Virus record (IMG/VR): IMGVR_UViG_3300042327_000272
Span: 1 to 35,124 of that record
DNA: 35,124 bases
Source: a virus
Direction: 5' to 3' (one strand)
The first letter of the stretch is position 1; each line of letters starts with the position of its first letter. This document shows, piece by piece, positions 26,823 through 31,178 of this stretch. A program made the position numbers and the translations under genes. The notes beneath the pieces are model-generated. The model was given only the letters and a program-made list of their open reading frames with translations, had not been told where the DNA came from and did not search any database.

Positions 26823-27069
26823 GCGCGTACCACTTACGTGCGGCAAGAGCATAGACATGGGTGGCCCTGTTATGGGCTACTACGACTATGACACTGATGA
26901 CCCTAGCCTACACATCGACTCTCGGTGTAAGACTAGGGCTGACATCATCAACACCCTTACCCACGAAATGGTACACCAGCTTCAACATCAGCGAGGCCTA
27001 CCTGTTAACCACGGTAAGTTCTTCAAGCGTCAAGCTAAGCGCCTCGCTAAGTATGGAGTAATGATATGA
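26674..27069 (+). CDS. SprT-like zinc metalloprotein
   Basis: About 131 aa from GTG 26674, preferred because GGGAG (26662-26666) lies 7 bases upstream; ATG 26647 and ATG 26710 in the same frame are alternatives. The SprT-like pattern is clear: LLSYWHGRLNTALFDRELKR near the start, then HEMVHQLQHQRGLPVNHGKF with an HExxH zinc motif and a third His, and a basic end. SprT/Spartan domains are metalloproteases or zinc-binding proteins acting on DNA-bound proteins; phage members are uncharacterised. The gene overlaps the endolysin by about 149 bases in another frame and overlaps the Rz start as ATGA, an odd location within a lysis cassette. Confidence 0.78.
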   Translation: MPQETLKLATRRMVTTHLREHGHKRVDLTPALLSYWHGRLNTALFDRELKRVPLTCGKSIDMGGPVMGYYDYDTDDPSLHIDSRCKTRADIINTLTHEMVHQLQHQRGLPVNHGKFFKRQAKRLAKYGVMI

Positions 27070-27374
27070 GATACGTGACCTTAGTGCTAGCGGCCCTAGT
27101 GCTAGCCCTCGGCGGCACCACATACGGCCTCTGGCAGCGACAAGCCGCCCTAGCAGCCCAGAACAAAACCCTCACAGAGGCCGTAGAACGGGCCGTGGAG
27201 CGCGAGAAACGCGACCGGAAGGTGCTGGTAGCCCGACAGGCTGAAATCGCCTCACAGGCTCTGAAATTGAAAAAGACGGAACGGGCGCTATCAGATGCGC
27301 TTTCTGCTAACCCGGCTTGGGCAGACGCACCAGTACCGGCTAACGTACAAGAGGTTCTAACCAATGGAAGCTAA
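27066..27374 (+). CDS. Rz-like inner-membrane spanin (i-spanin)
   Basis: A 102-aa protein with an N-terminal membrane segment (YVTLVLAALVLALGGTTYGLW), a long charged coiled coil (residues 25-80, with KTLTEAVERAVEREKRDRK) and the ending WADAPVPANVQEVL, which matches Rz proteins. It would sit in the inner membrane with its coiled coil in the periplasm and pair with Rz1 to fuse inner and outer membranes in the last step of lysis. It overlaps the SprT-like stop (ATGA) and the nuclease start (11 bases). Confidence 0.88.
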   Translation: MRYVTLVLAALVLALGGTTYGLWQRQAALAAQNKTLTEAVERAVEREKRDRKVLVARQAEIASQALKLKKTERALSDALSANPAWADAPVPANVQEVLTNGS

Positions 27375-27669
27375 ACACAAGGGCGCACACAGCGAGCTAG
27401 CTGCTTGCCTGTGGTTGCTTGAGCAAGGCTACGAAGTATTCAGAAATGTGAGCCAGCACGGTACTACCGACATGATTGCGCTTAAACACGACTGCACCAT
27501 ACGTGTAGACGTTAAGACTGCTCAGCAATACACCATGAAAGATGGTACGGTTAAGCACTACTGCAAACATCCGGCAGTACGCGGTGTCAGAATACTGGCG
27601 GCACTGTCAAATGGGGATTTTGTGTGGGCCGATCAAATGCCCCAGAACCGTCCGAAAGTACACGGGTGA
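27364..27669 (+). CDS. PD-(D/E)XK nuclease-like protein
   Basis: A 101-aa protein with the core of the restriction-endonuclease fold. E11 lies in a helix (GAHSELAACLWLLEQGYEVFRN), then G-T-T-D36, then the strand R-V-D49-V-K51, which together form the usual catalytic set. The size and the EQGYEVFRNVSQHGTTDMIA pattern resemble Holliday-junction-resolvase-like and group I intron-type PD-(D/E)XK enzymes. It may cut branched or host DNA. It is unexpected between Rz and Rz1, where spanin genes usually overlap or adjoin. Confidence 0.78.
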   Translation: MEAKHKGAHSELAACLWLLEQGYEVFRNVSQHGTTDMIALKHDCTIRVDVKTAQQYTMKDGTVKHYCKHPAVRGVRILAALSNGDFVWADQMPQNRPKVHG

Positions 27670-27674
27670 TACCG

Positions 27675-27914
27675 ATGTACCAACTGACGTTCAAAAAGCT
27701 CTCAGTGGGCCTTCTGATGGCCTTGCTGAGCGGCTGTAGCACGATTAAATATGTCCGAGAGTTGCCGCCTACTGAACTGCTGGCCGACTGCACGGAGACT
27801 GTAAGCGAGATTAAGACTAACGGACAGTTAGCCTCAGCTTACCTAGCGGCCAAGGGCGACCTAGCCAAATGCAACACAGACAAAAGGAGCCTGCGAGAGT
27901 GGGCTAAACAGTAA
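27675..27914 (+). CDS. Rz1-like outer-membrane lipoprotein spanin (o-spanin)
   Basis: A 79-aa protein from ATG 27675, chosen because it places the signal correctly: KK, then SVGLLMALLSGC, with LSGC as the lipobox and Cys as the likely lipidated residue. The mature part is about 60 residues with a short helical region and further Cys residues. Together with Rz it forms the membrane-spanning complex that completes lysis. In this phage Rz1 is a separate gene not nested in Rz, with a nuclease gene between them. It ends in TAATG overlap with the next gene. Confidence 0.85.
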   Translation: MYQLTFKKLSVGLLMALLSGCSTIKYVRELPPTELLADCTETVSEIKTNGQLASAYLAAKGDLAKCNTDKRSLREWAKQ

Positions 27915-28135
27915 TGCCAATCGTTAATTACAAACTGACGCGTGACCAGTATCGTTACGACAATGCCGCTGTGGTGCCCATTAACACCATCTTGCTGGAG
28001 TTTGAGACTACCGGCATGGGCGATCGTGTATTTTCTACACACGTCCAAAACCTTGGTACCAGCGGCCAGCTTCAATGGCAAGCGAGTGGTGATGGTGTGT
28101 GTCTGGTTGGTTTACAGTACCTAGCGAGGCAATAG
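27914..28135 (+). CDS. N-terminal part of a probable virion protein, split by frameshift
   Basis: A 73-codon frame starting in TAATG overlap with Rz1. Up to about residue 62 it reads as beta strands (VPINTILLEFETTGMGDRVF and GTSGQLQWQASGDG), a pattern common in phage structural or decoration proteins, where an S-x-D-G-x-x-W-x-x-L motif follows. The last 11 codons look unlike the family. The next reading frame, one base back, resumes with SGWFTVPSE. A change of one GT unit in the (GT)4 tract at 28095-28102 would join the two into one protein of about 291 aa. Confidence 0.65.
   Translation: MPIVNYKLTRDQYRYDNAAVVPINTILLEFETTGMGDRVFSTHVQNLGTSGQLQWQASGDGVCLVGLQYLARQ
28095..28102 (+). repeat. (GT)4 tract at the frameshift point
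   Basis: Four GT units lie exactly where the two frames of the split virion-like gene meet. With one unit removed the codons read GAT GGT GTG TCT GGT TGG, which gives D-G-V-S-G-W and a continuous frame. Confidence 0.7.
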
Positions 28136-28791
28136 CGGCATCAGGCTATACAACTAACCCGAACGCCGTGGGTGTTTACCTTACACGCCCCGTAGCCAAG
28201 TTTATGCGGCTTGCTATGGTCGCTGCCACTACCGCCGGTGCAACTAACATTGTGGTAACGTCTGCGAGCAGCGATTCTTGCCGGGTTAACTCCCTCGGTT
28301 CTGGCGTGGTGGGCCCTGTTGCTCACGACTCCCCTGTCGCCAGCTCCCCTGTTCGCACAGGTTCCCGAGCAGTAAGTGCCAACGTAGCGGCTGTCTCTAA
28401 CAACGACACTATTGACAACATCACGACCCTCGTTGGTGCAGGTATTGTCAAGCCTTTCAGCATCCCTGAGGCTGACTGGCAGTACGCTGCCCAAGCAGGC
28501 GGTATCGTCAACACTACAGACGTTGTGGTACGAGCAGCAGGTGCGGCCGGTATCCGTAACTACGTGACCGCTGTGCAGATTCGCAACGTAAGTACTGTCT
28601 CTACAGAAGTTGTGATTAAAGACGGTTCTACCATCATCTGGCGTGACTTCTTCCCAGCTAACAACTCAGCCCCCCAAGAGGTTGTATTCCCCACCCCGCT
28701 CAAGGGTACGGCAGCAACTGCCCTCAACGTAGCGTGCCTTACCACAGCCGCAGCAGTGTTCGTTAACGCCCAGGGTTACCAAGCCCCGTAA
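28099..28791 (+). CDS. C-terminal part of a probable virion protein, split by frameshift
   Basis: About 230 codons, open from base 28093; the only usable start codon near its beginning is GTG 28099, without a convincing ribosome site. The first residues (SGWFTVPSEAIAASG) continue the strand pattern interrupted in the preceding frame. VAKFMRLAMVAATTAGATNI is typical of the first beta domain in such proteins. A second domain follows (VVRAAGAAGIRNYVTAVQIR, TEVVIKDGSTIIWRDFF, ending FVNAQGYQAP), resembling the jelly-roll-like C-terminal halves of phage surface proteins. Likely a virion or head-surface protein; it may also be made as a separate protein by internal initiation. Confidence 0.65.
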   Translation: MSGWFTVPSEAIAASGYTTNPNAVGVYLTRPVAKFMRLAMVAATTAGATNIVVTSASSDSCRVNSLGSGVVGPVAHDSPVASSPVRTGSRAVSANVAAVSNNDTIDNITTLVGAGIVKPFSIPEADWQYAAQAGGIVNTTDVVVRAAGAAGIRNYVTAVQIRNVSTVSTEVVIKDGSTIIWRDFFPANNSAPQEVVFPTPLKGTAATALNVACLTTAAAVFVNAQGYQAP

Positions 28792-28961: not shown

Positions 28962-28973
28962 GGTTAAGGACAA

Positions 28974-29058
28974 GCTCCCACATGAAATGCTCATAGTAAT
29001 CTGCCCATAGCGAAAGCTACAGGCAGATGCTAAATTTGCTAAGCATTTGTGTGGGGGC
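28974..29058 (+). ncRNA. Large structured RNA element / end-of-operon hairpin
   Basis: An 85-base region that folds well on itself. The outer arm 28974-28991 (starts GCTCCCACATG) pairs with 29042-29058 (ends GTGTGGGGGC) as about 17 pairs with two G-T wobbles and one bulged G. Inside, ATCTGCC (28999-29005) pairs with GGCAGAT (29022-29028), then a symmetric CA/CA internal loop, then TAGC-GAAA-GCTA with a GNRA-type loop. No T run follows, so a simple intrinsic terminator is unlikely. It could be a processing site, 3'-end stabiliser, packaging or replication element, or a stand-alone small RNA. It begins 13 bases after the last late gene. Confidence 0.6.
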
Positions 29059-29326
29059 ACCTCCAACTTCCCCAGCCCCAGTTTCCCCCGTAGGCCCTGC
29101 ACCATACGCGCTGGCCGAAGGCCGAAGGGGCTAGCTTACCGAGCATATAACAAGGGCCTTGCTAGTATAGCACACATCACAAAGCCTTGCAAGCATGGGG
29201 CTATTGCACAATGTGCTAGCATAGCGCGTGACATAGCGGGCGCATATTGGTCGCTAGGCTTAGCCTGTGAGCATGGGCTATCTGTCTTGCTGATAATGCT
29301 GATAATGCTCGGATAGCTTCGCTAGC
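29059..29326 (+). other. Noncoding stretch with short repeats, no supported gene
   Basis: I see no convincing gene here. The stretch holds a GGCC-GAA-GGCC mini-hairpin (29113-29123), two near-copies of TGCTAGYATAGC (29160-29171 and 29214-29225) and two adjacent copies of TGATAATGC (29291 and 29300). A frame of about 89 codons exists but has no ribosome site and reads as repeat-derived low-complexity sequence. As the right end of the genome in this phage group, it may contain part of the terminal region. Confidence 0.5.
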
Positions 29327-29337
29327 TGTGTTACAAT
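29327..29337 (+). promoter_or_regulatory. Host sigma70-type promoter P1 (extended -10)
   Basis: TGTGTTACAAT, an extended -10, first of a series sharing TGTGNTAYAATGCAG. No good -35 is seen, so it relies on the TGTG extension. It lies 30 bases before the phage promoter motif at 29367. Confidence 0.55.
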
Positions 29338-29366
29338 GGCGGTAGACGTTAAGGCTAACGTGATAC

Positions 29367-29380
29367 GGTACCTATACTAC
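29367..29380 (+). promoter_or_regulatory. Putative phage RNA polymerase promoter, copy 4 (upstream of early region)
   Basis: GGTACCTATACTAC, identical to copy 3, lies upstream of the early genes, inside the long noncoding block. It would let the phage polymerase re-transcribe the left arm, or serve in replication initiation or packaging, as end-proximal promoters do in T7. Confidence 0.75.
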
Positions 29381-29424
29381 TCATATCAACCAAGGGTTAG
29401 CCTATCGAATACTGTATCTATTGC

Positions 29425-29592
29425 CTAGTAAGCCTACTAGTAAGCCTTAGAGCTTCGCTCAGTTAGCCATAGAGCTAGAGAGCTATAGACGAGAGCTTAT
29501 AGACTAGAGAGTTAGCTAGTAAGCCTATAGACTAGACGTATAGACTAGAGCTTGTAGACTGTGCTATAATGCAGACAGGTTAGCTAGTAAGC
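29425..29592 (+). repeat. CTAG-rich short direct repeats (possible end repeats)
   Basis: Two repeat units interleave. CTAGTAAGC occurs at 29425, 29437, 29516 and 29584; TATAGACTAGA occurs exactly at 29498, 29526 and 29539. The tetramer CTAG is far denser here than elsewhere in the window. By position, between late and early genes and before the early promoters, this recalls the T7 SRL/SRR arrays of short repeats next to the terminal repeats. Function is inferred from that analogy. Confidence 0.65.
29565..29570 (+). promoter_or_regulatory. Host sigma70-type promoter P2
   Basis: A perfect TATAAT with TGTGC directly upstream and GCAGACA downstream. The -35 candidate TAGACT (29541-29546), 18 bases upstream, is weak and forms part of the TATAGACTAGA repeat. 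Confidence 0.65.
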
Positions 29593-29636
29593 TAGTTAGA
29601 TAGCAGCTAGGCAAAGCCTTGTAGAGCATAGCTCAG

Positions 29637-29664
29637 TTGACAAGCGAGTTAGTTAGTGTATAAT
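29637..29664 (+). promoter_or_regulatory. Host sigma70-type promoter P3 (consensus)
   Basis: TTGACA (29637-29642), 16-base spacer, TATAAT (29659-29664): both hexamers are perfect matches to sigma70 consensus. GCAGACA follows, as at P2. It is probably the strongest early promoter in the window. Confidence 0.85.
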
Positions 29665-29691
29665 GCAGACAATGCTAGAAATAGCAGCATG

Positions 29692-29719
29692 CTGTAAGGC
29701 TTTAAGCAAGGCTTTACAG
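29692..29719 (+). repeat. Inverted repeat overlapping the P4 -35 element
   Basis: CTGTAAGGCTTT pairs with AAGGCTTTACAG (two G-T wobbles) around an AAGC loop. On RNA started at P3 it would fold as a hairpin; on DNA it covers the -35 of P4, so it could be an attenuator or a protein-binding site. A smaller TGCTA-GAAA-TAGCA hairpin lies just upstream (29673-29686). Confidence 0.6.
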
Positions 29720-29742
29720 GATGGTTAAAACTGTGGTACAAT
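29713..29742 (+). promoter_or_regulatory. Host sigma70-type promoter P4
   Basis: TTTACA (29713-29718), 18-base spacer, TACAAT (29737-29742) with the TGTGG extension and GCAGTTA downstream. The -35 lies in the 3' arm of a 12-pair inverted repeat (29692-29719). Confidence 0.72.
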
Positions 29743-29820
29743 GCAGTTATTGATTAGCAAGACTTACATGCTAGTGGCTACAAGTTGGCCTAGGGTGTAG
29801 GGCTAGTTGATAAGTGATAG

Positions 29821-29850
29821 TTGGCAGTTGAGTTGATTGTGTGTTACAAT
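29821..29850 (+). promoter_or_regulatory. Host sigma70-type promoter P5
   Basis: TTGGCA (29821-29826), 18-base spacer, TACAAT (29845-29850) with TGTGT before it and ACAGT after. It matches the other members of the series. Confidence 0.7.
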
Positions 29851-29946
29851 ACAGTCTAGTGATTGACGTAAGGTTTGATGTATAGGTTGCCCTTGGGAGT
29901 GACTGAAATCTCTAAGCATGACCTGCCTTCGGGAGCAGAGTAGGCC

Positions 29947-29975
29947 TTGAAGATTGCTAGATTGTGTGGTATAAT
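29947..29975 (+). promoter_or_regulatory. Host sigma70-type promoter P6
   Basis: TTGAAG (29947-29952), 17-base spacer, TATAAT (29970-29975) with the TGTGG extension and GCAATCG downstream. Confidence 0.75.
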
Positions 29976-30030
29976 GCAATCGTTGCCGTAAGGCTTTGGT
30001 CCTAAGTATGACCTAAGGTAAAACTACTAG

Positions 30031-30059
30031 TTGCAATGTGTCGAAAGATGTGTTACAAT
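30031..30059 (+). promoter_or_regulatory. Host sigma70-type promoter P7
   Basis: TTGCAA (30031-30036), 17-base spacer, TACAAT (30054-30059) with a TGTGT extension and GCAGTTA downstream, identical in its downstream bases to P4. Confidence 0.74.
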
Positions 30060-30119
30060 GCAGTTAACGTAGTCGTGATGACTATACGTAGGTTGGTTGA
30101 GTAGCGTGTGCCTTAGGGT

Positions 30120-30130
30120 TGTGCTATAAT
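30120..30130 (+). promoter_or_regulatory. Host sigma70-type promoter P8 (extended -10)
   Basis: TGTGCTATAAT, a perfect -10 with the same extension as P2. No well-spaced -35 is visible. It is the last clear member of the array; about 530 bases of leader separate it from the first early gene. Confidence 0.62.
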
Positions 30131-30659
30131 GCTTATCTATGAAGACGGCTTTGATAGTTGTGTGCCTAGTTGATAGGCGTAGTGGTGAACCGATATACCA
30201 CTAATGGCAACTTATGCCCGAGGGATGTACGTAGGGTGGATTGTGTGTACATGCACATCACTTACGGGTTGAACGCACACTATGGCTGTAAGGTTGTAGT
30301 TACGTCTAGTTGACTCTAGACCAAGTTGCACTATGCTCGTAAGGTTTATGTGTGGGGGTTTGCACAGAATACCTAGCAAGGCTTACAGTATTTGATAACC
30401 AAGTTGTATCTGTAGGCGTTGCATGGGTTATACACTAGGCTAAGGGCCGAACTACGTATAGGATAGACAAAGCTCTATCTGTAAGCATGGTTGATGCCGC
30501 ATACTTAATCCGAAGAATCGTACCCAAAGTGCATTAGGTTGAAACATTACCCGTATTGCCATGATGGCGGGTCGTTAGGTGTGCCGTACATGCCGATTGT
30601 ACTAATCGGTTAACCATGCTTTCAGCTAGGGCTTTCCTAGTTTACTCTGAAAGACTCAC
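30131..30659 (+). other. Long early leader, no convincing gene, several hairpins
   Basis: No convincing gene longer than about 22 codons is seen. GTAAGGYTT motifs occur at 30288 and 30339 (also at 29694, 29868 and 29988 between the promoters). CCGATT (30593-30598) pairs with AATCGG (30604-30609). Just before the first early gene, TTTCAG (30620-30625) pairs with CTGAAA (30647-30652) around an inner CTAGG-GCTTT-CCTAG hairpin. Two 21-22-codon frames begin near the P8 start point. Such a long structured leader may hold RNase III sites or part of the terminal repeat. Confidence 0.55.
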
Positions 30660-31178
30660 ATGGAATTGAAAGTATTGAATAAGAAGATTGCTGCGCTCAA
30701 GAAGTCTAACGCTAAGGTGCGTGATGACATCCAAGCTCTCGGTCTGGTGTGTCTCGCTCACATTGAAGCTCATGGTGATGTTACGCCATTGAACAATCTG
30801 TACGATGCTCTCATCAAGACGCAGCATCAAGCGTTCGCTGAGTGGGCATTCTCGTTCGGCAAGGTGTCTAAGAACACCAATGCCAAGACTAAGGAAGCCA
30901 TGCCCTTGGCTTATGACAAGTCCAAGAAGACTGACATTGAAGCTGCCACGGCTAAGCCTTGGTTTGACTTCGCTGATGACAAGGCTAAAGCTACGGCTAA
31001 GGCGTTCGACTTCCAAGCTGCTGTGATGTCGTTGCTCAAGAAAGCTGCGGCTGCGGGTATCGACCATTCCAAGTTGGTTGCAGTTGCTGCTGTGGCTGAC
31101 ATCAAGGCTGAGAAAGTGCCTGCCACGGTCATGACTGCTGAGCAAGCTGCTGCATCTGTGGGTGAGGCTATCGTCTAA
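30660..31178 (+). CDS. First early protein, unknown, Ala/Lys-rich helical
   Basis: A 172-aa protein, likely the first translated early gene. It is mostly helical with many Ala and Lys residues: MELKVLNKKIAALKKSNAKV at the start, TQHQAFAEWAFSFGKVSKNT in the middle, FDFQAAVMSLLKKAAAAGID later, and an Ala-rich end. No catalytic motif or membrane segment is visible. The ribosome site is weak (GAAAG), with a hairpin directly upstream that may influence initiation. First early genes in T7-group phages often counter host defence or redirect host functions, but nothing here shows which. Confidence 0.72.
   Translation: MELKVLNKKIAALKKSNAKVRDDIQALGLVCLAHIEAHGDVTPLNNLYDALIKTQHQAFAEWAFSFGKVSKNTNAKTKEAMPLAYDKSKKTDIEAATAKPWFDFADDKAKATAKAFDFQAAVMSLLKKAAAAGIDHSKLVAVAAVADIKAEKVPATVMTAEQAAASVGEAIV

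Follow-up and report, generated by a model that had tools for sequence, protein, structure and literature searches.

Two adjacent open reading frames lying directly after the Rz1 gene, at 27914–28135 and 28099–28791, are, as sequence comparison shows, the two halves of one gene that has been split by a frameshift. It is very probable that this single gene, which is intact in relatives, was broken inside a domain by a small recent indel. The DNA analysed here (the window) comprises an entire IMG/VR virus record, 35,124 bases in length. Curvibacter phage P26059B (Autographiviridae, Kalppathivirus) has genes that align with those of the window, among them the genes for the RNA polymerase, head-tail adaptor, tail tubular proteins and internal virion proteins, with identities of 95% for the major head protein and 86% for the terminase. 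By relationship, the phage would be T7-like and Kalppathivirus-like, with a freshwater-type betaproteobacterium as host. Scans of the window for Rfam families and tRNAs gave no matches.

The two frames and their junction

The features of the region, all on the + strand, are:

27066..27374, +, Rz (i-spanin), 102 aa, counterpart of P26059B gp43
27675..27914, +, Rz1 (o-spanin lipoprotein), immediately before the split gene, counterpart of P26059B gp42
27914..28135, +, N-terminal piece, 73 aa, from ATG 27914 to the stop at 28135; matches the HMM of intact relatives at positions 10–62 (E 2.7e-8)
28093..28791, +, C-terminal piece, first start GTG 28099; matches the HMM at positions 64–127 (E 3e-6); AlphaFold model of 28315–28788
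28093..28135, +, overlap of both open frames, 43 bases; upstream limit of the second frame set by a TGA at 28090
28095..28102, +, (GT)4 dinucleotide tract GTGTGTGT at the join, seen in the sequence; frequency not above chance

The ATG at 27914 overlaps the Rz1 stop (TAATG), and the relatives begin at the same TAATG junction. The frame from this ATG encodes the first half of a beta-sandwich domain (domain 1) followed by approximately ten out-of-frame residues and a stop, and ends in SGDGVCLVGLQYLARQ. The second frame (...WCVSGWFTVP...) gives 230 amino acids from the GTG at 28099 and covers the second half of domain 1 (to approximately 28300), a linker and a whole C-terminal beta-sandwich module (approximately 28375–28788). 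The two pieces are in frames offset by one base, with the second in the −1 position. The change of frame must lie within the 28093–28135 overlap, and homology narrows it to about 28094–28111, that is, to within approximately 10–20 bases. A prior sequence-only reading, which had given frames from 27914 and 28093 with a GT tract at 28095–28102, was correct in both sequence and coordinates.

That reading had offered four causes for the split, of which a recent mutation and an assembly error fit the data, while phase variation and programmed frameshifting are without support. Programmed ribosomal frameshifting would join both frames and yield one short and one long product, a scheme compatible with the 43-base overlap and with a second frame at −1, the commonest programmed shift. 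However, the overlap contains no slippery heptamer (X_XXY_YYZ), and the RNA downstream folds no better than its shuffles (z −0.12), with no stable fold that could act as a stimulator. Furthermore, the frame arrangement is not conserved, relatives using a single continuous frame, and the short product would amount to half a beta-sandwich according to the model of an intact relative. This explanation is considered extremely improbable.

Intact relatives of the split gene

When 2.9 million viral contigs were scanned, the second piece had matches at 80 loci, most of which share the C-terminal ~138 aa only. Two of these, L003 (IMG/VR 3300042868_002047) and L002 (3300042549_001254), match the second piece from its residue 1, and the first piece matches there too (41% over 64 aa). 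Their genes lie in the same slot, in the order lysozyme, Rz, Rz1 and this gene, and have the same two domains as the window gene, the second piece being 55% and the first 41% identical to them. They differ in that both pieces are contained within one uninterrupted frame of 293 aa. Loci anchored on the terminase gave further syntenic relatives (L095, 300 aa; L120 and L145, 373 aa; L086, 361 aa; and L101, whose gene is truncated by the end of the contig). Each of them has the N-terminal domain of the split gene in a single frame directly after Rz1. A hit of the first piece in another locus (L082), located within a terminase-like protein (EFETTGMGD), was dismissed as due to chance.

Four intact-frame relatives, with the window left out, were used to build an HMM of the N-terminal domain (132 positions). 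The two pieces match adjacent halves of this model, and since these halves belong to one domain the pairing of the two frames is not due to chance. The domain is open across the position of the break without a stop in all 11 contigs carrying it (approximately 8 distinct sequences, most in the slot after Rz1). The proposal of the sequence-only reading that one gene is split near the GT tract is thereby upheld, and the fused product of approximately 291 aa that it expected is near the 293 and 300 aa of the intact relatives. It had suggested alignment to homologues with continuous frames, and such homologues exist in the same slot, open across the join. It had also named homologues encoding two separate proteins as the observation that would speak against a single gene; relatives with two ORFs in this slot were not found among the syntenic loci compared, each relative having one frame.

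The possibility of a second protein, for which translation would re-initiate at GTG 28099 or further downstream to give a single-domain C-terminal protein, was also considered. The C-terminal module is complete and predicted to fold alone as a domain, and proteins of 124–127 aa occupy the same slot in P26059B and three other loci (L142, L123 and L098). However, the start of the second frame is weak, with a GTG as the sole nearby start codon and a Shine-Dalgarno energy of −3.8 kcal/mol, and initiation at this GTG would begin in the middle of domain 1. The lone-domain proteins are marginally similar to the C-terminal module (best E 0.0007 in a 4-sequence search), and no relative has two ORFs at this place. 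Two separate proteins are considered highly unlikely.

Age and cause of the break

Divergence from L003 is much the same for the two halves of domain 1 (43% and 39% identity). This equal divergence does not support recombination at the join as the cause of the break. Nucleotide differences from L003 at codon positions 1, 2 and 3 number 26, 28 and 39 of 58 for the first piece and 68, 69 and 135 of 226 for the second. The equal divergence, together with the excess at the third position in both pieces, suggests that the gene was coded as one unit until recently. Loss of the frame would thus be recent on the scale of the divergence from L003, or be present in the assembly alone.

The course of events proposed is that one late gene, starting at the ATG that overlaps the Rz1 stop, would have encoded a two-domain beta-sandwich protein of approximately 290–300 aa, and that a small recent indel near 28094–28111 would have moved its second part into another frame. 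Translation of the sequence as written would then give a 73-aa product ending inside domain 1, with most or all of the C-terminal domain lost. The chance that the gene, variable and probably dispensable, lost its frame by natural mutation is put at about even. A consensus or assembly error is a serious possibility too, with natural mutation being somewhat more likely. None of the genes compared with P26059B elsewhere in the window contains a frameshift (Rz is changed by an insertion and not by a frameshift), and with an assembly that is otherwise clean the balance leans slightly to natural mutation. It should be noted that this clean comparison argues against an assembly that is error-ridden in general, although one isolated error would be compatible with it.

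The remaining cause put forward was slippage in the GT tract, by which production of the full-length protein would be switched on and off among the phages of a population. In its favour, the frames meet at a tandem dinucleotide repeat, the slot is one whose genes vary, and the protein could plausibly be a surface appendage. However, the tract is unremarkable, being no commoner than chance: dinucleotide tracts of at least 4 units occur twice in the window against 7.1 ± 2.7 expected from first-order Markov simulations. Four repeat units are also short for slippage-driven switching. Since residues 62–63 of L003, the closest relative, have no counterpart at the join, homology is no proof that the indel occurred in the GT tract. 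All of the relatives are in the "on" state. A gapped search for the same flanks with another tract length found no contig, and no near-identical contig for comparing tract lengths was found in the viral contig scans, from which near copies of the window may be excluded. Phase variation is accordingly judged very unlikely. It is equally hard to credit, if not slightly more so, that the tract is a real slippage switch by which a T7-like phage toggles between a two-domain appendage and either none or a lone C-terminal domain; if true, such a switch would act in a slot where gene replacement is a further source of variation. The split is real and ordinary in kind; rather than a switch, it is most probably an ordinary mutation or an error in the sequence. 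In an annotation pipeline the broken gene would come out as a pair of hypothetical proteins with no apparent relation.

The slot after Rz1 and the predicted protein

The single broken frame is seen in a variable accessory late gene. The content of the slot differs even between close relatives, with proteins of 126 aa in P26059B, 127 aa in L142 and 361–373 aa in L086 and L120. The P26059B protein, gp41, holds the same genome position directly after Rz1 and differs from the split gene in being short and of marginal sequence similarity to the C-terminal module. The gene after Rz1 has been replaced among eight of the loci (L083, L086, L091, L098, L104, L120, L123 and L142), the replacements being proteins of 124–127 aa, a 196-aa protein, multi-domain proteins of 361–373 aa and a collagen-like (GPQGIQG) protein of 437 aa. 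The slot is tolerant, close relatives replacing its content wholesale, and the gene itself is probably dispensable.

Two further observations concern the surroundings of this slot. Between Rz and Rz1, at 27270–27669, approximately 396 bp have been inserted in place of approximately 52 bp. The insertion carries a PD-(D/E)XK endonuclease-like ORF (27364–27669; PF11645 above the cut-off). Rz1 overlaps Rz in close relatives, whereas in the window the two genes lie apart and the C-terminus of Rz has been rewritten by the insertion. Phages Shivani and phiR201 are known to have a GIY-YIG endonuclease between their spanin genes (PMC6139136), and the insertion is a new example of an endonuclease in this place, of another nuclease type. 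Further downstream, 28970–30660 is a long stretch without convincing genes. It contains seven + strand matches to GTGNTAYAATGCAG with at most 2 mismatches, against 1.9 expected, and none of 100 shuffles reached seven. These are probably an array of host sigma-70 early promoters. The wider point is that beta-sandwich, collagen-like and other proteins are swapped among close relatives in the slot between Rz1 and these early-promoter-like sites, so that for this group of phages it is a promising place to seek appendages of the virion or proteins that aid lysis.

Neither of the two pieces nor the intact relative had a significant family match in Pfam or PHROGs, and a search of PDB sequences with a profile gave no match. 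Modelled with AlphaFold2 (mean pLDDT 76), the intact relative L003 has two beta-sandwiches, at residues ~1–118 and 189–293, joined by a low-confidence linker. In this model the break maps to residues 61–63, just past a strand in the middle of domain 1. It is thus predicted to truncate domain 1 and leave the C-terminal domain intact, the window's own C-terminal module being predicted as a complete sandwich (AlphaFold, 28315–28788).

The C-terminal module (~138 aa, 61–68% identity) also ends large proteins of lambda-type prophages, where the ORFs are roughly 300–900 aa long and the N-terminal parts to which it is fused are unrelated. In one such prophage (L010), the protein is encoded between a portal gene (PF05136) and a gene for a PF25209 capsid protein. 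This position suggests a location in the virion. It is plausible that the product of the split gene is also found there, and an appendage or capsid-associated role would be its most likely reading. In another prophage (L004, 2800–5118), a 497-aa protein with this module is broken by an inversion, with residues 1–290 on the − strand and 292–496 on the + strand; the head genes nearby are rearranged, which may reflect misassembly or a real rearrangement.

A Foldseek search with the model of the intact relative gave XepA as the top match (E 1.2e-5), with a whole-chain TM of 0.25, and YomS at a TM of 0.66 over one domain. The C-terminal module alone gave generic beta-sandwich matches, XepA and YomS being absent from the best 50. 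With the low whole-chain TM and these generic matches, a "XepA-like" assignment is a lead and not membership, and the predicted likeness is remote. XepA and YomS are pentameric beta-sandwich proteins of Bacillus prophage lysis cassettes, of which XepA is cytotoxic and YomS is not (PMC6834076). A protein of this type would have two C2-like beta-sandwich domains connected by a linker. The protein of the intact relative resembles XepA of PBSX (PDB 6i56) and YomS of SPbeta (PDB 6i5o) in its predicted layout of two beta-sandwiches and in its place beside the lysis genes, but differs from them in sequence, with approximately 10% identity, and in that their hosts are Gram-positive.
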